Shown: one piece after another, positions 2,624 through 63,249 of the stretch
How the letters are laid out: each line of letters begins with the position of its first letter
Position numbering within the stretch: the stretch's first letter is position 1
Assembly (NCBI RefSeq): GCF_003002895.1
Contig: NZ_PVTI01000003.1
Coordinates: forward strand, 124,001-188,000
Reading direction: 5' to 3'
Source: Knoellia remsis
GTDB lineage: Bacteria > Actinomycetota > Actinomycetes > Actinomycetales > Dermatophilaceae
DNA length: 64,000 bases
Translations under genes and position numbers: made by a program
Notes under the pieces: generated by a model
What the model saw: only the letters and a program-made list of their open reading frames with translations
Told to the model about the DNA's origin: nothing
Databases searched by the model: none

Positions 2624-3051
2624 CGGGCTCCCCCGTCGAGCGCGCCGGGGTGGATCTCCTGGCGGGAGCGGATGTAGCCGGCGATCTGGCCGACCTGCAT
2701 CACGAGCGTCTGGACGATGGCCGCGAGCGCGAACGCCCGCCCGTCGAGCCAGTCGACGCGACGCAGCACGAGGACGACGGCGGCGATGAGGATGAGCTGG
2801 CCGAGGTAGACGACACCCGCCCCCGCCATGGACGTCGCAGTCGACCCCATGACGACTGCCGTGATGCCGAACAGCCCCGCGAGCAGCACGACGAAGACGG
2901 TCGCGGCACCCGCGAGAGCCGAGAGCGCGGCGTGCTCACCGGCATACGCCCAGAAGGCTCCGGCGAGGACGATCAGGGCGATCATCCCGGGGACGAGAGC
3001 GCCGCGCAGCATCATCCGGACCGGGGTCCGTGGCGCGCGGTTGGTGGTCAC
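2620..3051 (-). CDS. small membrane protein at the head of the atp operon
   Basis: About 143 residues with four hydrophobic segments (about 14-32, 38-62, 68-86 and 97-115) and a basic C-terminus. The GTG start at 3051 is chosen because a GGAG ribosome-binding site lies 8-9 nt upstream; the open frame extends further upstream but codes nothing plausible. It overlaps the AtpZ-like gene by 4 nt and is the first gene of the atp operon here. The position corresponds to the unassigned membrane protein between wecA and atpB in mycobacteria. An AtpI/UncI-like role is possible but unproved. Confidence 0.6.
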   Translation of the reverse strand: MTTNRAPRTPVRMMLRGALVPGMIALIVLAGAFWAYAGEHAALSALAGAATVFVVLLAGLFGITAVVMGSTATSMAGAGVVYLGQLILIAAVVLVLRRVDWLDGRAFALAAIVQTLVMQVGQIAGYIRSRQEIHPGALDGGAR

Positions 3052-3178
3052 TGGTGGCTCTCCGTCGAGGTCGTTCCGGGTGCTTGTGAAAACTATCACA
3101 AGCGCCCCCGGGCGGGCCAACTGGCCGTCGAACCGAGCGTCCGCGGGCGTTGCAGGGCAGCGCAATACACTCGCCTCC

Positions 3179-4597
3179 ATGAGACAGCGGATCCTCGTCG
3201 GCTTGGCCATGGCCGACGCGGTCCTGCTGCTCGTCGCCTTCGTGCTCGGTACCGCTCTGGTGTTCGACCGGCTGCCGGCGGCGACACCGGGCGAAGCCGT
3301 GCAGGTGCTCGCCCGGCTGTGCGCGATCTGGGTGCTGAGCTCCTTCATCGGGAGCTTCATGACCGGCTTGGTCGTCTCCCAGGGCCCGCCGCGGCCGACC
3401 TATGGACGCGGCGTGCTCACGACGATCTTCGCGTTCTTCGCCCTCGCCGGCCAGATCATCGTGCTGCGGCCCTACTTCTCGCGCCCGCTCGTGCTCGCCG
3501 TCGGAGTCATCTGGCTGCTCCTCGTCCTGCTGCTGCGCTACGTGCTGCGCCGACGTCCGTGGAGCGAGCGCATCGTCGTCATCTCGAAGTCCGACGAGCT
3601 CATCGGCGAGGTGCGCCGGGCGCGACACATCACGGTTCTCGACGTCATCGACCCCAACACCAGCGGGCCGATCCCCCCTCCGCCACCGGACGCCTCGATC
3701 GTCGTCGACCTCAGCGTGCCGTGGTCACGCGACGTCACCCGTTACGTCTCGGCGACCTCCGTCGCCGGCCGCGAGGTGCGCTCCCTCGGCGAGATGTACG
3801 AGGCGCACACGGGACGGGTGCCGCTCGACCACCTCAGCGAGGGGTGGGAGATCGAGAACTCCCTCACCCGCAAGCTGCCGTTCCTCCCTTTCAAGCACGC
3901 GATCGACCTGGTCCTCGTCGTCCTCACCGTGCCGCTGTGGCTCCCGATCGTCGCCGTGGTCGCACTCCTCGTGCGGGTCATCGACGGGTCACCGGTGATC
4001 TTCAAGCAGGTCCGGGTCGGACGGCGCGGCGAGCTCGTCGAGCTGTTCAAGTTCCGCACGATGCTCGTGGATGCCGAGGCAGAAGGTGCGAAGCAGGCCG
4101 TCGGTCACGACCCACGCATCACTCGTCTCGGGCGCATCCTGCGAAGCATCCGCCTCGACGAGCTCCCGCAGCTGTTCAACGTCCTGCGCGGGGACCTCTC
4201 GATCGTCGGCCCGCGCCCGGAGCAGGTGGCGTTCGTGCAGACCTACCGCGAGGCCATCCCGTTCTACGAGCAGCGCCACCTCGTGCGACCCGGCATCACC
4301 GGCTGGGCCCAGGTGTGCCACGGATACGTCGCCTCCGAGGAGGAGACGATCAAGAAGCTCTCCTACGACTTCTACTACCTCAAGCACATGTCGCCGCTGC
4401 TCGACCTCGAGGTGCTCGCGCGGAGCGTGAAGACGATCCTCACTGCCTCGGGCACGACGCCGCGTGACCTCGCGCAGGAGCAGGCAGAGATCGACGAGGA
4501 GGCCGTCGACCTCGCCGAGGACACGGCGACGCACCGTCCCATCAGTCCCGCGGATGGACCTCGGAAGCAAGAGCACCGCCCGAAGCGCGCCAGCTGA
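3179..4597 (+). CDS. polyprenyl-phosphate sugar-1-phosphate transferase (WbaP-type)
   Basis: Starts polysaccharide assembly by moving a sugar phosphate from a nucleotide sugar onto a lipid phosphate at the inner membrane. The 472-residue protein has four N-terminal membrane segments (about 5-29, 43-66, 80-97, 103-122), a soluble middle and one membrane segment at about 241-265. The C-terminal bacterial sugar transferase domain shows KFRTM (291-295), DELPQL (327-332), GDLSIVGPRPE (338-348) and RPGITGWAQ (370-378). The ATG at 3179 is chosen because membrane segment one follows at once. It is divergent from the atp operon and convergent with glyA. The sugar cannot be read from the sequence. Confidence 0.88.
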   Translation: MRQRILVGLAMADAVLLLVAFVLGTALVFDRLPAATPGEAVQVLARLCAIWVLSSFIGSFMTGLVVSQGPPRPTYGRGVLTTIFAFFALAGQIIVLRPYFSRPLVLAVGVIWLLLVLLLRYVLRRRPWSERIVVISKSDELIGEVRRARHITVLDVIDPNTSGPIPPPPPDASIVVDLSVPWSRDVTRYVSATSVAGREVRSLGEMYEAHTGRVPLDHLSEGWEIENSLTRKLPFLPFKHAIDLVLVVLTVPLWLPIVAVVALLVRVIDGSPVIFKQVRVGRRGELVELFKFRTMLVDAEAEGAKQAVGHDPRITRLGRILRSIRLDELPQLFNVLRGDLSIVGPRPEQVAFVQTYREAIPFYEQRHLVRPGITGWAQVCHGYVASEEETIKKLSYDFYYLKHMSPLLDLEVLARSVKTILTASGTTPRDLAQEQAEIDEEAVDLAEDTATHRPISPADGPRKQEHRPKRAS

Positions 4598-4670
4598 CCT
4601 CCCCGACTGACTGCCGGTTCTCGGCTGTGCTCTCCCGACCGTCAGCGGGTCTGCCGTCCCCGCCCGGGCA

Positions 4671-5945
4671 TCAGCGGGGGTATGCCGGGAAGCGCGTCAC
4701 GAGGTCGCTCACCTGTGCGCGCACTTCCTTGGAGACCGCGTGCTCGGGGTCGGCGTCGCCGTCGATGACGGCTCGGGCGATGAGGTCGGCGATGGTGCGC
4801 ATCTCGTCCTCGCCCATGCCCTGGGTCGTGACGCACGGCGTGCCGACGCGGATGCCGCTGGCGATGTTGGGCTTCTGCGGGTCGAAGGGGATGGCGTTCT
4901 TGTTGAGGGTGATGCCGGCGGCGTCGCAGCGCGCTTCAGCGTCGACTCCGGTGACGAGCACCGGCTGGAGGTCGTGGAGCGACAGGTGGGTGTCGGTGCC
5001 GCCGGTCGTGGGACGGATGCCCTTCTCCCCCAGCGCTTCCGCAAGCACCTTGGCGTTGGCGACGACCTGCTTGGCGTAGGCGGCATACTCCGGAGTCGCG
5101 CACTCCTTGAAGTTCGTCGCCTTCGCCGCGATGGTGTGCATCTGCGGTCCGCCCTGCATCATCGGGAAGACGGCCTTGTCGATCGCGGCGGCGTGCTCCT
5201 CGCGGCAGACGATGGCGCCGGAGCGGGGACCGCGCAGGACCTTGTGGGTCGTGAAGCTGACGACGTCGGCGTGCGGCACCGGGCTGGGGATGGCCTTGCC
5301 GGCGACGAGCCCGATGAAGTGGGCTGCGTCGACCCAGAAGATCGCGCCGACCTCGTCGGCGATGGCCCGGAACCGCTCGAAGTCGATGAGCCGCGGGATC
5401 GCCGAACCACCGGCGAGGATGACCTTGGGCCGGTGCTCCTTGGCGAGGCGCTCGACCTCGTCGTAGTCGATGTCCTCGGTGTCCTTGTCGACGCCGTAGT
5501 GGACCGCGTCGAACCACTTGCCCGAGAACGACACCTTGGTGCCGTGGGTGAGGTGGCCGCCGTGGGGCAGGCTCATCGCGAGGATGGTCTCGCCCGGCTT
5601 GAGGAAGGCGCCGTAGACCGCCTGGTTGGCACTCGCGCCCGAGTGCGGCTGGACGTTCGCGTGGTCGGCGTCGAAGAGCGCCTTGCACCGCTCGATGGCG
5701 AGCGACTCGGCCCGGTCAACGACCTCGCACCCGCCGTAGTAGCGGCGGCCGGGGTAGCCCTCGGCGTACTTGTTCGAGAGCGTCGAGCCGAGGCTGGTCA
5801 GCACCGCGGGCGAGGACATGTTCTCGCTGGCGATGAGCTGGAGACCGCCGCGCAGCCGGGCGAGCTCGTCGACGAGCACCGACGCGATGTCGGGGTCGAA
5901 GGACTCGAGGGCCCCGAAGTCGGAACCGTAGAACGTCTCACTCAT
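4671..5945 (-). CDS. glyA: serine hydroxymethyltransferase
   Basis: Converts serine and tetrahydrofolate to glycine and methylene-tetrahydrofolate using pyridoxal phosphate. The 424 residues are full length. The cofactor lysine is Lys235 in SFTTHKVLRGPRSG; Asp206 and His209 in WVDAAH contact the cofactor ring; YPGRRYYGG (64-72) is the family signature. The first codons overlap the end of the upstream gene by 8 nt (ATGAGTGA), so translation is probably coupled. It follows the Sua5-type gene, a common actinobacterial order. Confidence 0.97.
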   Translation of the reverse strand: MSETFYGSDFGALESFDPDIASVLVDELARLRGGLQLIASENMSSPAVLTSLGSTLSNKYAEGYPGRRYYGGCEVVDRAESLAIERCKALFDADHANVQPHSGASANQAVYGAFLKPGETILAMSLPHGGHLTHGTKVSFSGKWFDAVHYGVDKDTEDIDYDEVERLAKEHRPKVILAGGSAIPRLIDFERFRAIADEVGAIFWVDAAHFIGLVAGKAIPSPVPHADVVSFTTHKVLRGPRSGAIVCREEHAAAIDKAVFPMMQGGPQMHTIAAKATNFKECATPEYAAYAKQVVANAKVLAEALGEKGIRPTTGGTDTHLSLHDLQPVLVTGVDAEARCDAAGITLNKNAIPFDPQKPNIASGIRVGTPCVTTQGMGEDEMRTIADLIARAVIDGDADPEHAVSKEVRAQVSDLVTRFPAYPR

Positions 5946-6778: not shown

Positions 6779-7648
6779 TCAGGCTCGGACGGCGACGACG
6801 GCGCGAGGGCGGCCGGTGAGGTCCGCACGGTCCTCGACGTGGGCCCACGACCCGGTGGCCCGCAACGCTGCCGGCAGGGACTCGCCTTGGACGTCGGCGT
6901 GCTCCATGACGAGGACGCCTCCGGGGCGCAGCAGGCTCGCCGACCGGGCCGCCACGAGGCGCGGGATCGCCAGGCCGTCCTCGCTCCCGCCGTAGAGCGC
7001 GACGTGCGGGTCGTGGTCGCGGACCTCGGGATCGACCGGCTCCGCGGTCGTGGGGATGTACGGCGGGTTGCTCACCACCACGTCCACGAGACCTTCGAGC
7101 TGCCCGTATGCCGTGATCGCATCGCCGTGGTCGAGCTCCACTCCCAGCCCGGTCGCCTCGACGTTGCGCCGGGCCCAGGCGACGGCCAGGTCGCTCACCT
7201 CGACGGCGTGCACCCGCGCGTCCGACACCTCGGCCTTGACGGCGAGCGCGATGGCGCCGGAGCCGGTACACAGGTCGACGACAACGGGCTCGACGACCCC
7301 CTTCTCCATCGCGGCCCGGGCAGCGTCGACGGCCCAGCCGGCGACGACCTCCGTCTCGGGCCGAGGGACGAAAACCCCTGGCCCGACGTGTAGTTCGAGC
7401 CCGCGGAACCAGGCCCGCCCGGTGAGGTGCTGCAGCGGCACCCGCGCCGAGCGCTCGGCGACGAGGCCGGCATACCGCTCGGAGAAGGCCGCGTCGACCG
7501 GCGAGCGGAGCACCATCCGACGACGCACCTCACCCGCGTCGACGCCGAGGACGAACGCCGCGAGCTCGACCGCGTCGGCCTCCGGCGAGCCGATTCCCGC
7601 TGAGGAGAACGCTTCTCGCGCCGCGACGACCTCGGCGTGCAGGGTCAC
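6779..7648 (-). CDS. prmC: release factor glutamine methyltransferase PrmC
   Basis: Methylates the glutamine of the GGQ motif of release factors, using S-adenosylmethionine. The 289 residues show LCTGSGAIA (126-134) for cofactor binding and the catalytic NPPY at 194-197. The N-terminal helical domain contains [11 protein letters not shown], and the core begins at FVPRPETE (93-100). The GTG at 7648 overlaps the prfA stop by 4 nt (GTGA), coupling it to its own substrate gene. Confidence 0.95.
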
Positions 7649-8727
7649 GAGCCCTCGCCGAGCGCCTCGAGCCGGGCCTCCTCGTCGGCGGTCATCGCGG
7701 ACTCGACGACGGGGTCGAGCTCGCCGCCGAGGACGACGTCGAGGTTGTAGGCCTTGAACCCGGTGCGGTGGTCGCTCACCCGGTTCTCGGGGAAGTTGTA
7801 GGTGCGCACCCGCTCGCTGCGGTCGACGGTGCGGACCTGGCTCGCCCGCAGGTCGGCGTTGGCCTCGGCTGCGGCATCGGCGGCCATCTGGTGCAGGCGC
7901 GAACGCAGCACCCGCATCGCCGCCTCGCGGTTCTGCAGCTGGGACTTCTCGTTCTGGCAGGTGACGACCGTGCCGGTCGGCAGGTGGGTGATGCGGACGG
8001 CCGAGTCGGTCGTGTTGACGCTCTGCCCGCCCGGACCGGAGGAGCGGAAGACGTCGATGCGCAGGTCGTTGGGGTGTAGCTCGACGTCCGGGGTGTCCTC
8101 GACCTCGGGCATGACCCAGACGCCGGCGGCGCTCGTGTGGATGCGGCCCTGGGTCTCGGTCACCGGCACACGTTGCACGCGGTGGACGCCGCCCTCGTAC
8201 TTGAGCCGGGCCCATGGCCCCTCCCCTGGTGCGGGGTTGCCGCGGGCACGGATCGCGACCTGGACGTCCTTGTAGCCACCGAGGTCGGTCTCGGTCTCAT
8301 CGAGCACCTCGGTGCGCCAGCCGCGGCGCTCGGCGTAGCGGAGGTACATGCGCAGCAGGTCACCCGCGAAGAGCGCCGACTCGTCGCCACCCTCGCCGGC
8401 CTTGACCTCGAGGATGACGTCGCGGTCGTCCTCGGGGTCGCGCGGGACGAGCAGGCGGCGGAGCGTGTCGGCACTGCTCTCCACGGTCGCCTCCAGGGCG
8501 GGCACCTCCGCGGCGAAGGTCGGGTCCTCGGCGGCCAGCTCGCGGGCCGCCTCGAGGTCGTCACTGGCGACCTGCCACGCGCGGTATGCCGTCACGGTCG
8601 GTCCCAGCGCGGCATACCGCTGGTTGACCTCGCGCAGGCGGTCCGGGTCGGAGGCGATCGCCGGGTCGGCCATGCTCGCCTCGAGCTCAGCGTGCTCCTG
8701 CACGAGGGCGGCAGCGGACTCGAACAT
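7645..8727 (-). CDS. prfA: peptide chain release factor 1
   Basis: Recognises UAA and UAG stop codons and triggers peptide release. The 360-residue protein carries the GGQ motif at 233-235 and the codon-reading PxT tripeptide as PVT at 188-190, which marks RF1 rather than RF2. The ATG at 8727 has an AGAGG ribosome-binding site 8 nt upstream. A strong hairpin separates it from rpmE; prmC follows with a 4-nt overlap. Confidence 0.97.
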
Positions 8728-10407: not shown

Positions 10408-11583
10408 TCAGGGGAGGTTGGCGAAGGCCTTCTCCAGATCGGCGATGACATCGCCTGCCGCCTCGAGCCCGCACGACAGCCGGACGAGGTCGGCGTCGGG
10501 CCGGGCATCGGCCGCGACGAACCGGTGGGTCAGGCTCGCCGGGTGCTGGGCCAGCGACTCCACCCCACCGAGGGAGACGGCATGGGTCACGAGGTCGAGC
10601 CGGTCCAACAGGGCCGACGCGGCGGCATACCCACCGCGCAGGCGGAAGGCGACGAGCGCACCCGGTCCGGCGAGCTGGCGACCGACGAGCCCGCGCGGGT
10701 CCCCGCCGGGCAGCCCCGGGTAGTGCACGACCGACACCTCGGGACGCTCCGCGAGCCAGGCCGCGACGACACCGGCGCTCTCCTGCTGCGCACGCACCCG
10801 CACGTGGATCGTCTGCAGCCCGCGGTGCAGCTCGTAGGCCGCGAGCGGGTGCAGCACGGCACCCGTGATCGCCCGCACCTGGCGCAGCCGCGCGACCCAG
10901 TCCGAGCTGCCCGCGACGACACCGCCCATGACGTCGCCGTGGCCGCCCATGAACTTCGTCGCGGAGTGCAGCGCGAGCGTCGCGCCGTGGCGGACCGGCT
11001 GCTGCAGCACCGGCGTCGCGAAGGTGTTGTCGACGACGAGCGGCACCTCGCCGACCTGCGCCGCGACCGCCTCGATGTCGACGAGGTCGAGCGAGGGGTT
11101 CGCCGGTGTCTCGAGCAGGACGAGCCCGGTGTCGGGACGCAGCGCATCGGCCACGGTGTCGGCGGTGGCCCAGGTGACCTGCGTGCCGAGCAGGCCGGTC
11201 GCGAGGAGGTGGTCCGATCCGCCGTAGAGCGGTCGCACCGCGACGACGTGCGGCGTACCGGCGGACACGGCGGCGAGCAGCGTCGCGGTGAGCGCCGCCA
11301 TCCCGCTCGCGAACGCCACGGCGCCGTCGGTCCCCTCGAGTGCCGCGACCGCGCGCTCGAACCGGTCGACGCCGGGGTTCCAGAGCCGCTGGTAGACGAG
11401 GGTCGCCTCGCCGTCCGGGCTTCCGCCCGCGGCGAGGGTGTCGTATGCCGTCCCGCCCGCCTCGATCGTCGGCATGGGGTAGGTCGTGGCCAGGTCGATG
11501 GTGGGGACGTGGAGGCCGAGCCCGGCGAGGTCCTCCCGGGCTACGTGCACGGCGGTCGTCGCCACGTCTGCGGAGCGAGTCAT
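10408..11583 (-). CDS. Cys/Met-metabolism PLP enzyme, methionine gamma-lyase-like
   Basis: A 391-residue fold-type I PLP enzyme of the cystathionine beta/gamma-lyase and methionine gamma-lyase family. Lys210 in LHSATKFMGGHGDVMGG binds the cofactor, Asp185 in VVDNTFATP contacts it, and TLVYQRLWNP (61-70) replaces the usual Y-x-R-x-x-NP region. It is divergent from an Lrp-type regulator across 110 nt, a pairing often seen for methionine gamma-lyase. Cystathionine gamma-lyase or O-acetylhomoserine sulfhydrylase activity cannot be excluded. The ATG at 11583 starts at MTRSADVATT. Confidence 0.8.
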   Translation of the reverse strand: MTRSADVATTAVHVAREDLAGLGLHVPTIDLATTYPMPTIEAGGTAYDTLAAGGSPDGEATLVYQRLWNPGVDRFERAVAALEGTDGAVAFASGMAALTATLLAAVSAGTPHVVAVRPLYGGSDHLLATGLLGTQVTWATADTVADALRPDTGLVLLETPANPSLDLVDIEAVAAQVGEVPLVVDNTFATPVLQQPVRHGATLALHSATKFMGGHGDVMGGVVAGSSDWVARLRQVRAITGAVLHPLAAYELHRGLQTIHVRVRAQQESAGVVAAWLAERPEVSVVHYPGLPGGDPRGLVGRQLAGPGALVAFRLRGGYAAASALLDRLDLVTHAVSLGGVESLAQHPASLTHRFVAADARPDADLVRLSCGLEAAGDVIADLEKAFANLP

Positions 11584-11693
11584 GTCCCGATCCTCCGCAG
11601 GATCCGCTGGAACGCGCCACAGTCCCGTGGAAACCGCGGTGAGCGGGCGGCATACGGCATGAATCCGCACTGCAGCGCGGCTAGCGTGGCGCC

Positions 11694-12314: not shown

Positions 12315-13169
12315 ATGAGATTCGGAGTCGTCGTCCCGTGGGCCAGCGAGCGCGAGTTCGCCGACCTCGCCGCCCGGGCCGAAGCCGCCGGCTGGGACAT
12401 GGTCTTCACGTGGGAAGCCGTGTGGGGCCAGGACGCGTGGGCGACCCTTGCGGCCGCCGCCATGACGACCGAACGCATCCGGCTCGGCACGCTGCTGACC
12501 CCGGCCGCGCGCTACCGGCCGTGGGACCTCGCGAGCCGGGTCGGCTCCGTCGACCGGCTCAGCGACGGGCGCGTCACGCTCGGCGTCGGCCTCGGCGCGC
12601 TGCACGGCAACTGGCTCGCCTTCGAGGCCGACGAGGGCCGACGCATCCGAGCGGAGAAGCTCGACGAGTGCCTCGCCATCTACGCGGGACTGTCTGCGGG
12701 ACAACCCTTTGCGTATGCCGGCCGGCACTGGTCCGCGTCGGAGGTCACCGAGCTCGTCCCACCACCTCCGGTGCAGCGGCCGCACCCTCCGGTGTGGTGC
12801 GTCGGCGCGTTCGTGCCCGGGCGGGACTCCCAGCCGTCGCTGGCCCGAGCGGCGCGCTGGCAGGGCATCCTCCCGGCGATGGCCGGCGGCTCCTTGGAGG
12901 ACCCAGGGTCCCGGCTCACCCACGACGGGCTGCGCGAGATCGTCGAGCGGGTGCGCGTGCTGCGGGACGAGGCGGGACTGCCGTGGGAGGACTACGACGT
13001 CGTCGTCGAGGGCGACAGCCACGGCGAGTTCGGAACGACGCGGCCGCCCGTGGACGCCTGGGCCGACGCCGGGGCCACGCGGTGGGTGGAGTCGTGGTGG
13101 GACCTGCCGGACTCGCCAGAGGGGCGCGCCGAGCTGGTGCGGCGCAACGACCTCGGGCCGCAGCGGTGA
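12315..13169 (+). CDS. luciferase-like (LLM class) flavin or F420-dependent oxidoreductase
   Basis: A 284-residue TIM-barrel protein of the bacterial luciferase-like family. Family features include MRFGVVVPW at the start, WDMVFTWEAVWGQDAW (about 29-44), the RIRLGTLLTP strand (about 55-64) and DRLSDGRVTLGVGLG (about 77-91). Many actinobacterial members use coenzyme F420, but cofactor and substrate cannot be read here. It overlaps the GNAT gene by 4 nt (GTGA), suggesting co-expression. The ATG at 12315 follows the palindromic repeat by 56 nt. Confidence 0.78.
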   Translation: MRFGVVVPWASEREFADLAARAEAAGWDMVFTWEAVWGQDAWATLAAAAMTTERIRLGTLLTPAARYRPWDLASRVGSVDRLSDGRVTLGVGLGALHGNWLAFEADEGRRIRAEKLDECLAIYAGLSAGQPFAYAGRHWSASEVTELVPPPPVQRPHPPVWCVGAFVPGRDSQPSLARAARWQGILPAMAGGSLEDPGSRLTHDGLREIVERVRVLRDEAGLPWEDYDVVVEGDSHGEFGTTRPPVDAWADAGATRWVESWWDLPDSPEGRAELVRRNDLGPQR

Positions 13170-13630: not shown

Positions 13631-13740
13631 AGAAGTCACCCAATTGAACGGCATACACCTGCTCTGCCCCACGTGAAAAAGTCACCAATTGAACGGACTC
13701 AGGCACCCGGAGCCCGCGTGAAAAACTCACCAAGTGAACG
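13627..13740 (+). repeat. three spaced copies of the CTCACCCAATTG-type repeat
   Basis: Three direct copies, 13627-13650, 13673-13695 and 13718-13740, each 23-24 bp and starting GTGAA and ending GAACG. They are separated by two unrelated 22-nt spacers (13651-13672 and 13696-13717), a period of 45-46 bp. The copies differ at a few bases. The array fills the gap between the stop of the GNAT gene and the rho terminator. Related copies lie at 23.2 and 63.3 kb. Confidence 0.8.
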
Positions 13741-13800
13741 AATGAGCGACTGTCTCCGCAGCGGCGCGCGGACGGCATACGAACTCGTTTGAAGAACGCC

Positions 13801-27855: not shown

Positions 27856-27981
27856 TCTCTCGCATGCGCCTTCGGCGCCGCGAGCGGCGCCATACCGCAC
27901 GCACGGCGTACGCACGAGGGAGATACGCTTGACGGCACACGTGAACGTCGATGTCGACACGCAGAAAGAGGCGTATCCGCC

Positions 27982-40836: not shown

Positions 40837-40861
40837 GCGTCAGCACGGCATACGCCGCAAC

Positions 40862-48321: not shown

Positions 48322-48329
<8 letters not shown>

Positions 48330-51511: not shown

Positions 51512-53167
51512 TCACTTCAGCGAGATGCTCGCGTAGTCCGGGACACCGAACGGCGTGATCTTGACGTTGGTGACCCTCTCGGACCAACCAGCCGTCGTGG
51601 TGGAGTACCACAGCGGGATGCTCGCCATGTCGTTGGCCAGCATCTGCTCAGCCTCCTGGTAGAGCTTGTTCGACTCAGCGGTGTCGGTCGCCGCAGCGGC
51701 CTCCTTGAGCTTGGCGTCGAACGCCGGGTTGGCGTAGTCACCGTCGTTGGACGAGGCACCCGTGGCGTAGATCGGGGTGAGGAAGTTCTCGATCGACGGG
51801 TAGTCCATCTGCCAGCCGGTGCGGAACATGCCCTTCATCTTCCGGTCGCGGATCTGCGTGCGGAAGGTCGAGAAGTCGACGACCGGGGTCGCGACGCACT
51901 CGACGCCGAGGGCGTTCTTGATGCTGTTGCAGGTGGCCTCGGTCCACTCCTTGTGCGACGCGTCAGCGTTGTAGGAGAGGGTGATCTTGCCGCCCTTGAA
52001 GCCGCCGGCCTTCGCCAGCTGCTCCTTCGCCTTGGCCGCGTCGAAGGTGCAGAACTCGCCGCAGACGTCCTTCTTGTAGCCGTCGACGACCGGGGAGACC
52101 CAGCCGGTGGCGGGCTCACGCGTGCCGTTGAAGACGGCGTCGATGATGCCCTGGCGGTCGATGGCCATGGAGATGGCCTTGCGGATCTCCGGGCCGTAGT
52201 TCGGGTCGACCTTGGTCGGCGCCGTGGTGATCGTCTGGATGACACCGACAGGCTTCTGGATGTTGCGGTCCGGAAGGTCCTGCTTGTACTTCTCGTCGAC
52301 CTGGGCGCTCGCCGGGATCTCGTCCGTGAGGTCGAGCTGGCCCGCGAGGACGTCGGCGTAGGCCGCGTTGGCGTCCTGGTAGATCTTGAAGGTGATGGTG
52401 TCGGCCACGCCCTTCTTCTCGCCGCTGTAGTCGGCGAACTTGGAGAGCTTGATCTCGGCGTTCTTCGTCCAGTTGTCGACCTTGTACGGGCCGGCGGCGA
52501 TCGGCTTGTCACCGAACGTCTTGGGGTCGGCGAAGAAGGCGTCGGGCTGCGGCGCGAAGGCCGTGTAGCCGAGGCGGATCGGGAGGTTGGCGACCTTCTC
52601 GGCCGTCTTGATCGTGAACGAGTAGTCGTCGACGACCTTGAGACCGGTCATCTCCTTGGCCTTGGGCTCGGGCGCCTTCTGCGGGCCCTCCTCGCCGTCC
52701 GGGTCCTCGGACTGGAGGTCCGCGTAGCCCTCGATCGGCTCGAAGAAGTAGGAGCTGACCTGCGCGTTCGGACCGTATGCCGTGTAGTTCCAGGCGTCGA
52801 CGAAGTTCTTGGCCTTGACCTCGGTGCCGTCGTGGAACTTGTAGCCCTTCTTGAGGGTCACGGTGAAGTTCTGGTTGTCCGTGGTCTCGATCTTCTCGGC
52901 GATGTCCATCTCGGGCTGCGCCGTGTCGACGTTGTACTTGACCAGCTTGGCCGTGATGACGTCGAGGACGTTGCCACCACAGGTCTCCGACGTGTTGCCC
53001 GCGACGAGCGGGTTCTCCGGGTTGCAGCCGCGGACGGTGATGTCGCCGCCCGTCTTCGCGGCGGCGTCCGTGTTTTCGCCGTCGTTGCCGCCGCCACCAC
53101 AGCCGGCGAGCACCAGGGCTGCCGCCGAGATACCGGCAACGGCCACCTTGCGAGTGGTTCCTCGCAT
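51512..53167 (-). CDS. peptide ABC importer substrate-binding lipoprotein (family SBP_bac_5)
   Basis: A 551-residue lipoprotein with signal peptide and lipobox LAGC (Cys23), then a Gly/Asn/Asp linker. KKGYKFHDGTEVKAKNFVDAWNY is the family signature; TWSLV-like and PNYGPEIRKAISMAIDRQGIIDAVFNG are conserved parts of domain III. It captures oligopeptides outside the membrane for the OppBCDF-type proteins. AGGAGG lies 8 nt before the ATG. It is divergent from the hisN-like gene across 217 nt. Confidence 0.93.
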   Translation of the reverse strand: MRGTTRKVAVAGISAAALVLAGCGGGGNDGENTDAAAKTGGDITVRGCNPENPLVAGNTSETCGGNVLDVITAKLVKYNVDTAQPEMDIAEKIETTDNQNFTVTLKKGYKFHDGTEVKAKNFVDAWNYTAYGPNAQVSSYFFEPIEGYADLQSEDPDGEEGPQKAPEPKAKEMTGLKVVDDYSFTIKTAEKVANLPIRLGYTAFAPQPDAFFADPKTFGDKPIAAGPYKVDNWTKNAEIKLSKFADYSGEKKGVADTITFKIYQDANAAYADVLAGQLDLTDEIPASAQVDEKYKQDLPDRNIQKPVGVIQTITTAPTKVDPNYGPEIRKAISMAIDRQGIIDAVFNGTREPATGWVSPVVDGYKKDVCGEFCTFDAAKAKEQLAKAGGFKGGKITLSYNADASHKEWTEATCNSIKNALGVECVATPVVDFSTFRTQIRDRKMKGMFRTGWQMDYPSIENFLTPIYATGASSNDGDYANPAFDAKLKEAAAATDTAESNKLYQEAEQMLANDMASIPLWYSTTTAGWSERVTNVKITPFGVPDYASISLK

Positions 53168-54173: not shown

Positions 54174-55529
54174 TCAGTTCGGGACGACGGTGACCGGTCC
54201 GAGGCCGAGCCCCTCGATGCCGTCGCGAAGGCTCGCCGCGTCGCCGACGACGACGATGACCCACTCGCCCGTCACGACGCTGTCGTATGCCGTCCGCAGG
54301 CGGTCTGCGTCCAGCTCGCCCATCGCTGCCAGCGTCGTGGTCTGGAAGTCCAGCGGGAGGCCTTCGATCGCGAGGGCCGAGGCCTCGTCCGCGACGGTGT
54401 CCGCGGTGGCATAGCGCCCCGGAGCGGTCTGCACGACGAAGTCGACGCCTGCTCGGATCTCCTTGTCGGAGAAGCCTTCCCGCGCATCGTCGAGGATGCC
54501 CACCAAGAGACGCAGGGCATCGACGGTGGAGTCGGCCCGTACGGAGCCGGCCGTGACGAACGAGCCTCCCCTCGCCCGCGGCCGGAAGCTGGACCGGATG
54601 CCATAGGTGTAGCCCTTCTCCTCGCGCAGGACGGCGTCGATCCGCGCGTTCGGGGCACCGCCCACCATGAAGGACAGGACGGGGTAGGGAGCCCAGCCGT
54701 CCGGGGTCGACCGGTCGGGGCCGGGGACGGCGACACCGAGCTCGCTCTGCACCGAGCCGGGTCGGTCGACGAGCACGACCCGGGTGCGGCCGCCGGCGGG
54801 CACCGGCGCCCGCGGCGGTGTGGCCGGGACCTGGTCCGGGTTGACCCACTCCCCCAACCCCTCGGTCACGAGACCGTCGACGTCGACACCGGCGAGGTCG
54901 CCGGCCACGACGAGCGTCGCCTCGCGCGGTCCGACGTGGGTGCGGTGGAAGGTGACGATGTCGTCCCGGGTGATGGCCGAGACGGTGTCATGGGTGCCGG
55001 CTGCCGGACGGGATGCGCGGTCGTCGCTGGACCACAGTCTCGCGCTGAGCTCGCGCGCCGCCCGGTGCGGGGCGGACGCGCGCTCCTGCTCGATCTCCGC
55101 GAGGCGGCTGCGCAGGATCCGACGCACCTCGGCCTCCGGGAAGGCCGGCTCGGCCAGGGCCTGCCGGAGCAGGTCGAGTGCCTGGGGCAGGAAGCGCTGC
55201 GGCACGTCGACGTCGACACTCAGTGCGCCGTCCGAGGCGGAGGCGCCGAGCGCCATGCCGGTGCGCTCCATCAGCTCGGCGAACTCGTCGCTCGTGTGCC
55301 TCGCCGTGCCCTCATCGAGGAGGCGCGCCATCATCACGGCGACACCTTCACGATCACGAGGCTCGTCCGTGAGCGAGAGGGGCACGACGAGGCGCAGCGA
55401 GATGACGTACTGGCCGGGGACGGCATACGAAAGAACGCGAATCCCGTTGTCGCTCAGCGACTCCCGCGGCATCGGGAAGGCCCACGGGCGCGGCGGCGCG
55501 ACTTCGGGACGGGGAACGTCGACGGTCAT
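54174..55529 (-). CDS. M16 family peptidase-like protein, probably non-catalytic partner
   Basis: A 451-residue M16-fold protein. The zinc motif HxxEH is absent where expected (VAVMMARLLDEGTARHTSDEF), while the late region GYTYGIRSSFRPRARGGSF, typical of the partner half, is present. It overlaps the catalytic gene by 4 nt, so the two probably form a heterodimer resembling the two-subunit processing peptidases. Confidence 0.85.
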   Translation of the reverse strand: MTVDVPRPEVAPPRPWAFPMPRESLSDNGIRVLSYAVPGQYVISLRLVVPLSLTDEPRDREGVAVMMARLLDEGTARHTSDEFAELMERTGMALGASASDGALSVDVDVPQRFLPQALDLLRQALAEPAFPEAEVRRILRSRLAEIEQERASAPHRAARELSARLWSSDDRASRPAAGTHDTVSAITRDDIVTFHRTHVGPREATLVVAGDLAGVDVDGLVTEGLGEWVNPDQVPATPPRAPVPAGGRTRVVLVDRPGSVQSELGVAVPGPDRSTPDGWAPYPVLSFMVGGAPNARIDAVLREEKGYTYGIRSSFRPRARGGSFVTAGSVRADSTVDALRLLVGILDDAREGFSDKEIRAGVDFVVQTAPGRYATADTVADEASALAIEGLPLDFQTTTLAAMGELDADRLRTAYDSVVTGEWVIVVVGDAASLRDGIEGLGLGPVTVVPN

Positions 55530-56821: not shown

Positions 56822-58237
56822 CTACGTGGCGCTGCGCACGTCCTTCTCGAGCCCGGCGGCCGGCGGCTCGTGGTCCGAGGCGACGACCGGGAGCTTCGGC
56901 AGCTCGTCGGGCGACATCTTGCGGATGATGTTGCGGGCAAGGATCTGCTGCGCCGTCACGGTGCGCTCCGAGCGGCCGCGGCCGATGAAGCTGACCACCC
57001 AGTGCAGCAGGGTCGTGATGCGGTGCTTGAAGCCGATGATGTAGACGAGGTGCACCGCGAGCCACAGCACCCACGCGACGAACCCGGAGAAGCGCGCCTT
57101 GCCGATGCTCGCCACCGCACTGAAGCGCGAGATCGTCGCCATCGACCCCTTGTCGAAGTAGCGGAACGGCTCCGGCGCGGGCTTGCCGTCGAGCCGCGCA
57201 CGCAGGTGCTTCGCGGCATACCGGGCACCCTGGATGGCCACCTGTGCAACACCGGGAAGGTTGTCCAGGGCGATCATGTCGCCGACGACGTAGACCTCGG
57301 GACGGCCCGGGAGGGTGAGGTCGGGGTTGACCTTGACGCGGCCGGCGCGGTCGAGCTCGGCATCGGACTGCTCGGCGAGCATCGCGCCGAGCTCGGAGCC
57401 TTGGACACCGGCGGCCCACACCTTGGTGGCGGCCTCGATGCGGTGGTGCGCCCCGTCCTGGGTCTCGTACTCGATGCCGGTCGAGTTGATGTCGACGACC
57501 TTCGCGCCGAGCTCGACGTCGACGCCCATCTTCTCCAGACGAGCCTTGGCCGCTCCCCCGAGCCGGTCACCGAAGCTCGGCAGCACCTGCGGCGCGGCGT
57601 CGAGCAGGACGATGCGCGCCTCGCGGGTGTCGATCGACCTGAAGTCCCGCTTGAGGGTGCGGTGCGCGAGCTCGGCGATCTGGCCGGCCATCTCGACGCC
57701 GGTGGGACCTGCGCCGACGACGACGAAGGTGAGGTAGCGGTCGCGCTCGGCCGGGCTCGTCGCGAGCTCGGCGAACTCGAACGCCCCGAAGATCCGGCCG
57801 CGCAGCTCGAGCGCGTCGTCGATGCTCTTCATGCCGGGGGCGTACTCCGCGAACCCGTCGTTGCCGAAGTAGGACTGACCGGCGCCGGCCGCGACGAGCA
57901 GGGTGTCGTAGGGCGTGACCGTGGTGCGCCCGAGGACCTCGCTCGTGACCGTCTTCGCGTCGAGGTCGATGTCGACGACGGTGCCGAGGATGACCCGGGC
58001 GTTCTTCTGCTTCGCGAGGATCTCGCGGGTGCTCGGCGCGATCTCGCCCTCGGAGAGGATGCCGGTCGCGACCTGGTAGAGCAGTGGCTGGAAGAGGTGG
58101 TGCGTCGTCTTGGCGATGAGGGTGACCTCGACGTCGTCGCGGCGCTTGAGTGCCTGCGTGCCGAAGAGCCCACCGAAGCCGGAGCCGATGACGACGACGC
58201 GATGTTTCGTATGCCGTGCAGCCGGTGGGGTGCCCAT
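56822..58237 (-). CDS. ndh: type II NADH dehydrogenase
   Basis: Non-proton-pumping NADH:quinone oxidoreductase. The 471 residues show the FAD motif VVVIGSGFGGL (14-24), the NADH motif FVVVGAGPTGVEMAG in the middle, VWAAGVQGS and VYVVGDM near the FAD ribityl site, and a C-terminal membrane anchor (about 375-400, FVAWVLWLAVHLVYIIGF). The ATG at 58237 has GAGGAGG upstream. Confidence 0.94.
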   Translation of the reverse strand: MGTPPAARHTKHRVVVIGSGFGGLFGTQALKRRDDVEVTLIAKTTHHLFQPLLYQVATGILSEGEIAPSTREILAKQKNARVILGTVVDIDLDAKTVTSEVLGRTTVTPYDTLLVAAGAGQSYFGNDGFAEYAPGMKSIDDALELRGRIFGAFEFAELATSPAERDRYLTFVVVGAGPTGVEMAGQIAELAHRTLKRDFRSIDTREARIVLLDAAPQVLPSFGDRLGGAAKARLEKMGVDVELGAKVVDINSTGIEYETQDGAHHRIEAATKVWAAGVQGSELGAMLAEQSDAELDRAGRVKVNPDLTLPGRPEVYVVGDMIALDNLPGVAQVAIQGARYAAKHLRARLDGKPAPEPFRYFDKGSMATISRFSAVASIGKARFSGFVAWVLWLAVHLVYIIGFKHRITTLLHWVVSFIGRGRSERTVTAQQILARNIIRKMSPDELPKLPVVASDHEPPAAGLEKDVRSAT

Positions 58238-59063: not shown

Positions 59064-59221
59064 GACGACTCCCCCTGCTCTCGACTGTCCAGTGCCCCCT
59101 CATCCAAACGCGGGTGACCGACACCGGAGGCGAGCTGCCCGGCATACGAGAACAGCCCCTGCCCGGCCCGACCGCACACGCCGCCCCCCACCCCCCACCG
59201 CACACACCCCCGGGAACGGCG

Positions 59222-59416: not shown

Positions 59417-62400
59417 TCACGGGGAGCTGCTCGGGCTCGGGCTGGGGCTCGCCCCCGATGTCGCGGTCGGCGCCGGCGTGGCACCGGATGCCCCGAGCTG
59501 GGGCGCGAGCGCCCCGGCGCGGTTGATCGCGTCCTGGAGGTCCTTCTGGGCCTGCCCGTATGCCGCGAAGTCGCCCTTCTTGAGCGCCGCCTGCCCGGCC
59601 GCGTTGGCGGCCTCGATGTCGCGGATGACCTCGGCCAGCTGAGCACTCGGCGACTGCGTCGAGGGAGGCTCGCCACCCGGCGGCGGGGAACCACCGCCGG
59701 TGTCGGTGCCGCTGTCCCCGGCGCTCGCCCCGGAGTTGCCGCCGAAGACGCCGTCGAGCGCCTGGTCGAGCGTCTCGCCCCACGCGATGCGCTTGCCGAA
59801 GACGGCGACGGTCGCCTTGTTCTGCGGGAACGACCCGCCCTCGCGGGAGGCCTGGACGTACATCGGCTGCACGTAGAGCAGCCCCTCGCCGACGGGCAGG
59901 GTCAGCAGGTTGCCGTACGTCAGGGTCTTGCCCGACTGTCGGTTCTGCGCGATGAACTGGCTGAGGTTGAGCGGCTCGCTCGGGCTCTGCGATCGCGCCG
60001 TCGAGACCTCGATCTGGTTCTGCACCTGGCCAGGACCGTCGACAGCGGTGTTGCGGGGCAGCTCCAGCAGCCGCATCGTCCCGTAGCTCTCGGACGGCTT
60101 GCCCGCGGTCGAGCCCGCGTCGGAGTCGACGGCGAGGAAGCCGCGCAGGATCTCGCGGCTGCCACCCGACGGGATGAACGTCGTCGTCAACGAGAACGCC
60201 GGCGCCTTCTGGTCTGGCATCGCGAGCGACTGGTAGTAGACCGGCTGGTCCTGGGTGGCGTGCGTCGGGTCCTTGGGGACGCGCCAGAAGTCGCCACCGC
60301 CGTAGAACGAGTTGGCGTCCGTGACGTGGTAGCTCGACAGCAGCTGCCGCTGCACCTTGAGCAGGTCCTGCGGGTAGCGCACATGCGACATCAGCTGGGC
60401 CGACATCTCCGACATGGGCGAGACCGCCTCGGGGAACGCCTTGCTCCACGCCTTGAGGATCGGGTCCTCGGTGTCCCAGCCGTAGAGCTTGACCGAGCCG
60501 TCGAACGCGTCGACCGTCGCCTTGACCGAGTTGCGGATGTAGTTGATCTTGCCGCGGCCCGCGACGACGACGCTGTTGGCCCGCTGGCTCACCGAGTCCG
60601 ACGTCGCCTGCTCGAGGTCCTCGAGCTTGCTGTTGGGGTACTGCGCCGTCGTCGTGTAGGCGTCGACGATCCACTTGATGCGGCCGTCGACCAAGGCGGG
60701 GTAGGCGTTGCCGTCCAGGGTCAGCCATGGCGCGACCCGCTGGACCCGCTCGCGCGGCGTGCGGTAGTCGAGCAGCCGGGACTCCGGGTTGACCGCGTCC
60801 GACAGGAGGAACTTCGGCTCGCGGTACTTCACGGCATACGCGAGCTTGCGACCGAAGGACCCGATCGCGACCCCACCCTTGCCCTCGTAGGTGTTGTTGG
60901 CCTGACCGCCCTCGCCCTGGTCGTCCGGGTAGTCGAACTCGCGCGGCTTGGCGCCCTCCGGAGCACCCACGATCGAGTACTGCGTCGACTCCTCGCCGAA
61001 GTAGATTCGCGGCTCGTACTCGACGCCACCCGGACCCTTGGTGGAGAACCCGCTCGTGAAGAACTGCGGGTCTCCCTCGCTCGTGCGGCGGTTGCCGTAG
61101 GCGCCGATGAAGCCGAACCCGTGGGTGTAGACCGTGTGGTCGTTGAGCCAGTTGCGCTGTCCGTCCGGAACCCCGTCGAGGCGCAGCTCGCGGACGGCGA
61201 CGACGGAGTCGCTCTTCTGGCCATCGATCGTGTAGCGGTCGACGTCGAGGATGTCGGGGAACGCGTAGTACTGTCGCAGGCCCTCGAACTGTCGGAAGGT
61301 GGGCGAGACGACGTTGGGGTCGACGAGGCGGATCCCGGGGATCGTCTCGGCGTCCGCGCGCAGCTGACCCGGGGCCGCGTCGGTCGTCGCGGCGTAGGGC
61401 GTCTTCTTGATCCCGTCGAGGCCGTATGCCGTGCGCGTCGCGTCGATGTTGCGCTGGATGTACTGCGCCTCGAGGGACTTCTCCGAAGGCCGGACCTTGA
61501 GCGACTGCACGGCTGCGGGGTAGAGACCGCCGGCGACGACGGAGAGCACGGTGAGCAGCCCGACGCCGACGAGCGGCAGCCGCCAGCTGCGGGTCCAGAT
61601 CGCCGCGATGAAGAAGCCGGCGCACATCAGGGTTGCGACGGCGAGGATGGCCTTGATCGGCAGCACCGCGTTGGCGTCGGTGTAGGTGATGCCGGTGATG
61701 AGCCGCGACTCGCTCGTCGTGAGGCTGTAGCGGTCGAGCCAGGAGGACGCGGCCCGCACGAGCGCGAGCAGCGAGGCCAGCGTGGCGATCTGGACGAACG
61801 CGGCACGCGTCGTCCGGCCACGACCGGGGAGCTGCAACCCGCCATAGACGTAGTGGGTGAAGGCGGCCGCGATGAGCGCGAGGACGAGGACGATGGTGAG
61901 GAAGCCGACGAGGAAACGCAGCCACGGCAGGGTGAAGACGAAGAAGCCGACGTCGAGGCCGAACTGCGGGTCTTTCGTGCCGAAGGGGACGCCATTGCGC
62001 CACAGCAGGAACGTGCGCCACGCACCCATCGCGGCGGCCCCGGCGAGGAGGCCGAGCACGCCCGGGACGACGAAGGTGGCCAGCCGGCGCAGGGGGTCCA
62101 GCGCCTCGCGGTACTGCGCCAGCACCTGCGCCGACGGCGTCTGCGGGAACGTCAGCGGCCGCGTGCGGTAGGCGATGACGAGGCTGGCCGCGACGGCGCC
62201 GGCCGTGATGACGAAGGCCCCGACGAAGAGGATGACCCGGGTCCAGAGCTGGGTGAGGAAGACGTCCCGGAAGCCCACCGACTCGAACCACCAGAGGTCC
62301 GTGAGCAGGCCGGCTCCCATGAGCAGGAGCAGCCCCAGGCCGGCGAGGATGCCGACGGTGATGCCGAGCGGACTGCGCCGACGCGGGCCGGAGCCGCCGG

Positions 62401-62569
62401 GCGAGCCGGGGCGGCCACCGAAGCCCGGGACGCGGGGACCTGCGGGTCCGCCGGGTCCCCCGGCGCCTGCGGGACGTCGCCCGGGGCCCTCACCGCGACG
62501 TTCACCCGCGCCGGATCCATTGTCGGCGTCGTCGGGGTCGATTCCGTCGAACCACTCTGACCGGCTCAC
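59417..62569 (-). CDS. UPF0182 family large membrane protein
   Basis: A 1050-residue protein, close to family length. The N-terminal 65 residues are a Gly/Pro/Arg-rich cytoplasmic tail, seven hydrophobic segments follow up to about residue 330 (first LGITVGILAGLGLLLLMGAGLL), then a large outer domain with conserved stretches such as YTHGFGFIGAYGNRRTSEGDPQFFTSGF, and a Ser/Pro/Gly-rich C-terminal tail. It is a widespread actinobacterial and cyanobacterial protein of unknown function. GTG at 62569 (SRSEWFDG) is the likely start; the ribosome-binding site is weak. Confidence 0.88.
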   Translation of the reverse strand: MSRSEWFDGIDPDDADNGSGAGERRGEGPGRRPAGAGGPGGPAGPRVPGFGGRPGSPGGSGPRRRSPLGITVGILAGLGLLLLMGAGLLTDLWWFESVGFRDVFLTQLWTRVILFVGAFVITAGAVAASLVIAYRTRPLTFPQTPSAQVLAQYREALDPLRRLATFVVPGVLGLLAGAAAMGAWRTFLLWRNGVPFGTKDPQFGLDVGFFVFTLPWLRFLVGFLTIVLVLALIAAAFTHYVYGGLQLPGRGRTTRAAFVQIATLASLLALVRAASSWLDRYSLTTSESRLITGITYTDANAVLPIKAILAVATLMCAGFFIAAIWTRSWRLPLVGVGLLTVLSVVAGGLYPAAVQSLKVRPSEKSLEAQYIQRNIDATRTAYGLDGIKKTPYAATTDAAPGQLRADAETIPGIRLVDPNVVSPTFRQFEGLRQYYAFPDILDVDRYTIDGQKSDSVVAVRELRLDGVPDGQRNWLNDHTVYTHGFGFIGAYGNRRTSEGDPQFFTSGFSTKGPGGVEYEPRIYFGEESTQYSIVGAPEGAKPREFDYPDDQGEGGQANNTYEGKGGVAIGSFGRKLAYAVKYREPKFLLSDAVNPESRLLDYRTPRERVQRVAPWLTLDGNAYPALVDGRIKWIVDAYTTTAQYPNSKLEDLEQATSDSVSQRANSVVVAGRGKINYIRNSVKATVDAFDGSVKLYGWDTEDPILKAWSKAFPEAVSPMSEMSAQLMSHVRYPQDLLKVQRQLLSSYHVTDANSFYGGGDFWRVPKDPTHATQDQPVYYQSLAMPDQKAPAFSLTTTFIPSGGSREILRGFLAVDSDAGSTAGKPSESYGTMRLLELPRNTAVDGPGQVQNQIEVSTARSQSPSEPLNLSQFIAQNRQSGKTLTYGNLLTLPVGEGLLYVQPMYVQASREGGSFPQNKATVAVFGKRIAWGETLDQALDGVFGGNSGASAGDSGTDTGGGSPPPGGEPPSTQSPSAQLAEVIRDIEAANAAGQAALKKGDFAAYGQAQKDLQDAINRAGALAPQLGASGATPAPTATSGASPSPSPSSSP

Positions 62570-62663
62570 GTCACAGGCTCCAGATCGGTGTTGCGGCCCG
62601 GCCGTGCCGGGCCCTTGAGGGGCACAGCCTAGGTGGCGAAGTTGAGTGCGGCACGATGGGTCC

Positions 62664-63200
62664 GTGACTTCGCCCACCCAGCCCGTGACCGATCCGCTCG
62701 CGATCGCCGCCCTCGACACCGAGCGTCACGTCGCGGCCGCCGGCTGGGACCAGCCGCCCCGGCTCTTCGCCCTCGTGGACACCGCCGACCTCGTGGCGCG
62801 CGAACCGCAGCTCGCTGCCGGTCTCGGCGCGGCCGACCGCGCCGAGGGTGCGCTCACCGCGATCGAGCAGGAGGAGCTGCCGGAGGCCGACAGCATCGAG
62901 GCCCTCCTCGGTCAGATCGCCTGGCCGGACACGGTCACCGGGTGCGCCTTCGTCCTCGAGCGGCTCGTCGTGCCCCCGGACGCCGAGCGCGACCTGCCCG
63001 AGGACCAGGACGCCGCCGTCGAGGCGCTCGCGGCACACCCGGACCGCCGCGACGTGCGCCTCCTCGCTGCGGTGACGCGGGACGGGCGCAGCATCTGCCT
63101 GCTCCGTCAGCGTGACCACGACAGCGACGACAAGGTGGCCACCGGTCCGGACATCGCACCCGGCCTCGTCGCCGCGCTGCAGGCGACATTCGCCGACTGA
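62664..63200 (+). CDS. PPA1357-like protein of unknown function
   Basis: A 178-residue acidic protein. The pattern GWDQPPRLFALVDTADL, LTAIEQEELP, LLGQIAWPDTVTGCAFVLERLVVPP and RDVRLLAAVTRDGRSICLLRQRDHD is a conserved actinobacterial family usually next to UPF0182, as here (divergent). Function unknown. GTG at 62664 is preferred over an ATG six codons upstream. Confidence 0.78.
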   Translation: MTSPTQPVTDPLAIAALDTERHVAAAGWDQPPRLFALVDTADLVAREPQLAAGLGAADRAEGALTAIEQEELPEADSIEALLGQIAWPDTVTGCAFVLERLVVPPDAERDLPEDQDAAVEALAAHPDRRDVRLLAAVTRDGRSICLLRQRDHDSDDKVATGPDIAPGLVAALQATFAD

Positions 63201-63249
63201 GACTTCGCGGTGCGCGGTGGGCGGACGGCATACGGCGTGATCGTGTCCC

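Follow-up and report, generated by a model that had tools for sequence, protein, structure and literature searches.

The window analysed here is a 64,000-bp stretch of the genome of Knoellia remsis (RefSeq GCF_003002895.1, contig NZ_PVTI01000003.1, positions 124,001 to 188,000), a member of the family Dermatophilaceae, and the element in question is a dispersed octamer, GTATGCCG. The octamer is non-palindromic and not self-complementary. Its 47 exact copies in the window, 23 on the plus and 24 on the minus strand, are those that a first-pass annotation made from the sequence had counted. That annotation had also pointed to rare codons forced by the octamer, and these are present: TAT in a PALP-family (thrC-like) gene at 18031, in a sigma-70-family (sigR-like) gene at 41275 and in an ABC-2 permease-like gene at 27683, and ATA in an ATP-binding cassette (ABC) ATPase gene at 26292. 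The permease-like gene has two Pfam matches, one just above and one just below the curated cut-off. The exact matches are listed below, together with a terminator-like hairpin formed by one inverted pair; they are placed as coding, antisense or intergenic by codon-model gene calls trained on Knoellia.

2940..2947, minus: coding, frame GCG TAT GCC GGT
4680..4687, plus: antisense in gene, CCG GCA TAC; exact in 5/5 aligned Knoellia
5081..5088, minus: coding
7106..7113, plus: antisense in gene
7468..7475, minus: coding; exact in 5/5 aligned Knoellia
8584..8591, plus: antisense in gene; close inverted pair with 8610
8610..8617, minus: coding; close inverted pair with 8584
10623..10630, minus: coding
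11443..11450, plus: antisense in gene
11648..11655, minus: intergenic
12713..12720, plus: coding
13649..13656, minus: intergenic
13773..13780, minus: intergenic
16083..16090, plus: antisense in gene, GGC ATA
18031..18038, minus: in PALP-family (thrC-like) gene, GAG TAT GCC GAC
20621..20628, plus: antisense in gene
21787..21794, plus: antisense in gene
22144..22151, plus: antisense in gene; exact in 7/7 aligned Knoellia
22300..22307, minus: coding
24587..24594, plus: antisense in gene
26292..26299, minus: antisense in ABC ATPase gene, GGC ATA
27683..27690, plus: in ABC-2 permease-like gene, GCG TAT GCC GCT
27814..27862, plus: terminator-like hairpin from the inverted pair 27820/27841, -40.9 kcal/mol, z -6.5
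27820..27827, plus: intergenic, left arm of the hairpin; exact in 7/7 Knoellia
27841..27848, minus: intergenic, right arm of the hairpin; exact in 7/7 Knoellia
29810..29817, plus: coding
32253..32260, plus: antisense in gene
33233..33240, minus: antisense in gene
34261..34268, plus: antisense in gene; exact in 7/7 Knoellia
34674..34681, minus: coding
37144..37151, minus: antisense in short called gene
37891..37898, plus: intergenic
40846..40853, minus: intergenic
41275..41282, minus: in sigma-70-family (sigR-like) gene, GAG TAT GCC GCC
42679..42686, plus: antisense in gene; exact in 7/7 Knoellia
43009..43016, minus: coding; exact in 7/7 Knoellia
43353..43360, plus: antisense in gene
46759..46766, minus: antisense in gene at 46015-47055
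52775..52782, plus: antisense in gene
54285..54292, plus: antisense in gene; exact in 7/7 Knoellia
55421..55428, minus: coding; exact in 7/7 Knoellia
57214..57221, minus: coding
58209..58216, plus: antisense in gene
59140..59147, minus: intergenic
59558..59565, plus: antisense in gene
60832..60839, minus: coding
61424..61431, plus: antisense in gene
63226..63233, minus: intergenic

Results

Dinucleotide-preserving shuffles of the window contain on average 0.92 copies of GTATGCCG (maximum 4), and an order-3 Markov model predicts 2.45 copies, so that the 47 observed represent a 19-fold excess, in line with the roughly 20-fold over-representation over about two expected copies given in the first-pass annotation. 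An order-5 model expects 31.7 copies in the window, because models of higher order absorb the octamer itself. Across the complete assembly of 3,573,222 bases in 62 contigs there are 3277 copies (1622 + 1655), about one per kb, compared with 276 (114 + 162) of the reversed octamer, which served as a control. In a 464-kb sample, made up of the window and twenty 20-kb segments taken from three contigs, 409 copies were found, far above the 22.4 expected at order 3 (approximately 18-fold) and compared with 112.7 at order 4. The over-representation also stands against related octamers: GTATGCGG occurs 59 times genome-wide as opposed to 3277 times for GTATGCCG, and one-letter neighbours are far rarer, the commonest of them, GGATGCCG, being found 16 times in the window and 90 times in 464 kb.

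Position and strand were analyzed in a 484-kb set with 429 copies, of which 430 kb is coding and 54 kb intergenic. The octamer had been described as lying in coding and intergenic DNA; it is present in both, but not evenly, with 139 intergenic copies (2.58 per kb) versus 290 coding copies (0.67 per kb), a 3.8-fold difference. Each contiguous piece uses the two strands evenly (99 plus/97 minus over 200 kb, then 36/34, 44/52, 23/24 and 9/11), and the 200-kb stretch in particular bears out the earlier statement that the octamer is unlike FtsK-orienting sequences. The base 3' of the octamer is preferentially T (0.47), and the commonest following four letters are TCCG (73 of 429). Within genes, 121 sense copies are read in the frame xxG TAT GCC Gxx and 115 antisense copies as xCG GCA TAC. 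Pairs of copies 8-40 bp apart occur 11 times in the +- arrangement, eight times as --, and four times each as -+ and ++, where about 3.1 are expected per type. Nine of the 11 +- pairs lie in called gaps, five of these tandem, four convergent and none divergent, and the four +- pairs that were folded form strong hairpins (-27 to -41 kcal/mol).

Sites in the window were compared with those in seven other Knoellia at 79.7-83.3% identity, with 9-21 unalignable sites excluded per species. Of the 244 aligned sites, 151 have the exact octamer (25/38, 26/37, 22/38, 20/37, 17/30, 25/38 and 16/26 per species), as against 0.28-0.36 of aligned sites for control octamers of the same composition, and both arms of the hairpin at 27814-27862 are exact in all seven species. 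Rare codons follow the same pattern. Among same-or-synonymous cells, TAT is retained as TAT in 41 of 68 cases inside GTATGCCG versus 11 of 71 outside, and GCA as GCA in 71 of 102 versus 89 of 433, with amino-acid-changed cells left out of the test (TAT, one inside and 10 outside; GCA, one inside and 115 outside). In the 484-kb set, the octamer contains 121 of the 336 TAT codons and 19 of the 37 ATA codons. The suggestion that selection acts on DNA rather than on protein is thereby strengthened, since rare codons inside the motif are kept far better across species and the motif is densest in noncoding DNA.

We surveyed 36 genomes of the Dermatophilaceae, including the window genome (G000), Knoellia sp. 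Soil729 (G004), Knoellia subterranea (G005), 'Janibacter sp. HTCC2649' (G006) and Knoellia sinensis (G007). At least 900 copies of GTATGCCG are present in 21 of the 36, namely all nine Knoellia and G011, G012, G013, G015, G019, G020, G023, G025, G028, G029, G032 and G034. Named taxa rich in the octamer include Knoellia, Pedococcus bigeumensis, Tetrasphaera australiensis, Phycicoccus elongatus, Humibacillus, Serinicoccus, Ornithinimicrobium sediminis, Terrabacter and Metallococcus, and among the named poor taxa are Janibacter, Austwickia, Intrasporangium flavum and a clade of other Phycicoccus. Close relatives can differ in this respect: P. elongatus and Intrasporangium chromatireducens have the motif, and P. 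sonneratiae and I. flavum do not.

Three of the 15 poorer genomes carry a one-letter variant instead, by whole-genome count: GGATGCCG in G024 (3816 copies) and G033 (3949), and GTATGCGG in G027 (1204), which an identical 153-residue protein identifies as Nostocoides sp. F2B08. Two dialects coexist in G020 (140 kb), where GAATGCCG occurs 97 times against 6.4 expected and GTATGCCG 34 times against 2.9, and both words are likewise enriched in 20 kb of the metagenome-assembled genome MS_R1 (7 vs 0.6 and 13 vs 0.5, respectively). In G033 the variant is densest between genes (3.31 vs 0.78 per kb in 60 kb; 2.12 vs 0.70 per kb in 110 kb) and also forms hairpin pairs; three +- pairs of GTATGCGG were seen in G027. 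Twelve of the 36 genomes have neither GTATGCCG nor a strong dialect among the words counted. Among these 12, G009 shows a mild excess of GGATGCCG (1336 copies; 37 vs 9.8 in 100 kb, not intergenic) and G026 has 293 copies of GTATGCCG. On a PrfB tree of 48 loci with prfB, the 'no motif' label requires 8 changes compared with 16.3 when shuffled, which indicates that the state of the motif is clustered, yet has changed repeatedly.

A further candidate dialect, GTACGCCG in G030 (27 vs 4.8), was rejected and is taken as a codon effect because GTACGTCG (17 vs 4.0) and GTACGGCG (18 vs 4.6) are raised as well; GTACGCCG also reaches 10 vs 2.5 in G026 and 19 vs 6.1 in G031.

Competence (com) genes, which the first-pass annotation had proposed to look for, and pilus genes are present in the window strain: ComEA (SLBB and HhH domains) adjoins ComEC, and there are two tad clusters. 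The tad-1-like cluster has TadE- and Tad-family minor pilins, one TadE match lying below the curated cut-off, and its tadA is interrupted; the tad-2-like cluster encodes a DUF4244 protein, taken for the Flp pilin. ComEC occurs in all 36 family genomes and was rejected as the determinant of the motif. A PilM-type type IV pilus was likewise rejected as carrier, with PilM_2, a type IVa marker, found in two of the 36 genomes (G027 and G032).

In the window strain, the tad-1 tadA gene is split by an element with phage-integrase-family genes (L060 9254-17273, contig C3). Other DNA interrupts the tad-1 tadA in G005, G015 and G035, and the tad-2 tadA in G012 and G360; in G008, tadA is truncated and the remainder of tad-1 lost. 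The inserts of five motif-rich genomes contain two copies of GTATGCCG in 80.4 kb, compared with 33 in the adjacent 49.6 kb; this count left out G008, where ordinary chromosome follows the break (15 copies in 29.5 kb), and G035, a genome without the motif, and for the insert pieces of G012 one outer boundary was chosen by hand and the other is the end of the stretch analyzed.

The break point falls at the Walker A codons in the tad-1 tadA of G015, G035 and Terrabacter tumescens (L252) and in the tad-2 tadA of G012, as does the truncation in G008; G000, G005 and G360 are broken at other positions. The inserts include recombinase genes, of the serine type in G015 and of the tyrosine type in G000. 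Besides L060 and L252, the loci behind these observations are L155, L298+L299, L156/L157, L158+L302, L154 and L300+L301. From them, tadA looks like a recurrent integration target. Among the further named loci L178, L211, L246 and L182, the accessible sequence of Pedococcus 5OH_020, an uncultured Phycicoccus and Terrabacter MAHUQ-38 covers just the C-terminal portion of the tad-1 tadA, and Phycicoccus HDW14 has the gene as two overlapping pieces 3.9 kb apart.

Outside the family, the count of GTATGCCG does not exceed 167 in any of the 22 genomes that represent other families of the order. In an even sample of the class (394 genomes), five of eight family members are rich, and each of the 386 others has at most 386 copies. 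G055, from another family of the order, has a raised count of GGATGCCG (1548); in 40 kb of this genome, taken as two stretches (L306 and L307), the truly enriched word is the related GGATGCCTC (19 vs 0.6), with one +- hairpin pair. CGGATGCCT in G055 has 15 of 16 copies in coding DNA and a strand split of 5 vs 11, with no intergenic excess.

We also observed several features whose relation to the octamer is less direct. A second dispersed repeat, around CACCCAATTGGACG, lies at 23247, 63283 and 63312 of the window and numbers about 23 copies per 464 kb of this genome; in places it forms tandem units of 64-68 bp, each also with one GTATGCCG. Two long stretches of the genome have no copy of the octamer: a 9.3-kb gap at C2:55864-65213, with glycosyltransferase-like genes amid housekeeping genes, and a 10.5-kb gap at C3:3294-13837, with several unassigned genes. 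The window gap at 46758-52774 was considered as a foreign island and rejected; it holds a peptide-type ABC transporter operon, as read from the translations. ARAGORN places a tRNA-Val at 46767-46863, inside the called gene at 46015-47055, which has no Rfam confirmation and is probably spurious. Elsewhere, G351 (family f45, outside the Dermatophilaceae) has a mild excess of GTATGCCG (170 vs 27 reversed), and G053:C1:28082-31265 carries about 53 copies of GTATGCGG on one strand with a period of 61-62 bp, resembling a CRISPR array.

Discussion

We consider it probable, judging from comparisons of sequence, that GTATGCCG is a DNA uptake (self-recognition) sequence of natural transformation. Like the DNA uptake sequences (DUS) and uptake signal sequences (USS) of other bacteria, it is dense, symmetric between strands, present in terminators, conserved, divided into dialects and almost missing from mobile DNA, and this match leads us to the proposal. 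The first-pass annotation had likened the octamer to highly iterated palindrome 1 (HIP1) of cyanobacteria or to DUS: the hairpin pairs, the dialects and the near absence from inserts favour the second half of that comparison, and the first is not supported, given the non-palindromic form and the distribution of the one methyltransferase family examined, PF01555, described below.

Under the proposed mechanism, a surface receptor, probably a part of the Flp/Tad competence pilus or ComEA, would bind fragments bearing the octamer in either orientation. The DNA would then be passed to ComEA/ComEC, and a single strand would enter the cell. Recombination at the homologous locus would spread and restore copies, up to about one per kb of core genome, mostly in permissive intergenic DNA, and would keep them at orthologous sites despite the rare codons that they force. 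Inverted pairs may have been co-opted as hairpin terminators. Shifts in receptor specificity could give rise to one-letter dialects in other genera, and where the preference was lost the motif would vanish. Foreign elements would be without the motif because they were not acquired by this route; in Neisseriaceae, integrative and conjugative elements are described as detectable by their atypical DUS content (PMC7371117).

A number of observations weigh against this proposal. The tadA gene is broken in the motif-bearing G000, G005, G015, G012 and G360 and truncated in G008, and the broken tad-1 genes among these led us to lower our confidence slightly. With the tad-1 ATPase gene interrupted in the window strain, the uptake system may currently be off there and its copies may be a recent fossil; we think that many present strains, including this one, carry the motif beside a damaged pilus locus. 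ComEC is found in all 12 motif-lacking family genomes, and two tad-type ATPases are present in eight motif-poor relatives (G009, G010, G016, G017, G018, G026, G030 and G031; among other poor relatives, G014 has none and G021 and G022 one each), so the machinery alone does not predict the motif. Conversely, the search for a tad-1 ATPase found none in the motif-rich draft G003 or in the 20-kb TadF locus of Nostocoides F2B08. G033, with its strong dialect and two tad ATPases, gave no match for TadF. Taken together, tad genes in poor relatives and gaps in rich ones mean that tad neither predicts nor strictly accompanies the motif. A column-by-column comparison of six tad-1 proteins gave no residue that distinguishes relatives with the motif from those without it, and yielded no receptor; tad-1 residues were thus rejected as receptor markers.

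Other observations on this side concern the motif itself. G023, counted as rich, has 1142 copies of GTATGCCG compared with 453 of the reversed word (2.5 times), and small samples of rich genomes gave 0 copies in 23.8 kb (G034), 4 in 20 kb (G025) and 3 in 23.8 kb (G032). The intergenic excess is weak for GGATGCCG in G024 (0.98 vs 0.72 per kb) and for GTATGCGG in G027 (0.55 vs 0.31 per kb), and in G020 the intergenic and coding densities are 0.88 vs 0.63 per kb for GAATGCCG and 0.17 vs 0.27 per kb for GTATGCCG. We further count on this side the reliance on codon-model gene calls, the non-independence of the conservation cells, since the seven Knoellia share their history, and the narrow scope of the methyltransferase test, which covered one family, PF01555.

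We weighed four other explanations. A DNA methyltransferase or other modification system could keep the octamer, as proposed for HIP1, with dialects reflecting enzyme specificities; abundant motifs tied to orphan methyltransferases are known, HIP1 being one (PMC4390886), and adenines on both strands of GTATGCCG make methylation possible. We nevertheless regard this as unlikely, given that the octamer is non-palindromic, that such a system predicts neither hairpin pairs nor the scarcity of the motif in mobile DNA, and that N6_N4_Mtase (PF01555, E up to 0.001) has no match in 12 of the 24 family genomes with the motif or a dialect (G002, G003, G004, G006, G011, G012, G013, G015, G024, G028, G029 and G033). 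An N6_N4 methyltransferase was accordingly rejected as keeper of the motif, which it does not track. The octamer length and high copy number also recall Chi of E. coli, and a recombination signal of that kind, or a replication or segregation signal such as the FtsK-orienting polar sequences (KOPS), would be read by a DNA-translocating enzyme. Signals of the Chi and KOPS type are oriented along replication, whereas strand use here is even in five contiguous pieces, and neither the 3.8-fold intergenic excess nor the hairpins would be expected, which makes such a role very unlikely.

The octamer could instead be a dispersed terminator or regulatory site without any part in uptake, a reading that draws on the observation that all nine +- hairpins in called gaps sit downstream of at least one gene and that the four folded ones are strong. 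It is highly improbable in view of the 290 of 429 copies that lie in genes, in both orientations, and of the conservation of coding copies across species. Ordinary codon-context or mutational bias seems hardly credible at all: genic copies do read mainly Tyr-Ala or Ala-Tyr, but the motif uses codons that are rare elsewhere (TAT, GCA and ATA), it is densest outside genes in this genome, and genera of similar GC content are without it. The better retention of TAT and GCA inside the motif already contradicts this explanation.

The uptake sequence that we propose for Knoellia resembles the DUS of Neisseriaceae, which are described as short asymmetric motifs of very high copy number that form inverted-pair terminators, are kept exactly at orthologous positions, vary in dialect from genus to genus and can occur as two dialects within a genome (PMC3630211; PMC2397512). 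The phylum and cell envelope are different. The Neisseria receptor, ComP, is given as a type IV minor pilin (PMC6370729); in the family of Knoellia, the type IVa marker PilM_2 is found in two of 36 genomes. The USS of Pasteurellaceae share a non-palindromic core of about 9 bp in hundreds to thousands of copies, by the accounts in PMC2346458, PMC1626085 and PMC7811141, and differ in motif, phylum and pilus type. HIP1 is likewise a very abundant octamer (PMC4390886), but is a palindrome tied to orphan methyltransferases, in contrast to the asymmetric GTATGCCG with its dialects and hairpin pairs. The Neisseria DUS, GCCGTCTGAA as given in PMC6370729, and the commonest extended Knoellia form, GTATGCCGTCCG, have GCCGTC in common; the CTG core described as essential in Neisseria is missing from GTATGCCGTCCG. 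We take the shared GCCGTC to be a coincidence.

Micrococcus luteus belongs to the same order as Knoellia in GTDB. Its transformation is reported to need both tad clusters and ComEC, and the same kinds of genes are involved, namely comEA/comEC, tad-1 with TadE/F-type minor pilins and tad-2 with an Flp pilin; actinobacteria are said to combine tad with ComEA/ComEC frequently (PMC4322843). The main text of that paper does not use the term 'uptake sequence'. Among open-licence PMC papers, represented mostly by titles and the starts of abstracts, we found no report of an uptake sequence in Actinobacteria; the sources consulted describe such sequences in two families of Gram-negative bacteria, Neisseriaceae and Pasteurellaceae. 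The enriched word in G055, seen in two stretches of one genome, hints that such motifs may be spread more widely in Actinobacteria. We advance only tentatively, leaning slightly away from it, the broader proposal that actinobacterial uptake sequences with dialects, read by a Flp/Tad pilus, extend beyond one family and that the Walker A codons of competence-pilus ATPase genes have been a repeated insertion site for mobile elements.

If the octamer is an uptake sequence, self-labelled DNA uptake would exist also in a very different bacterial group, beyond a few Gram-negatives. What uptake sequences are for, be it sex, repair, nutrition or molecular drive, is an old question, and an independent example from actinobacteria that have a Tad pilus would make the common causes of uptake sequences testable. 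The motif would also predict which strains exchange DNA, and its absence would allow foreign DNA in such genomes to be traced. It would also be of practical use in the transformation of Knoellia, Terrabacter, Serinicoccus and similar bacteria.

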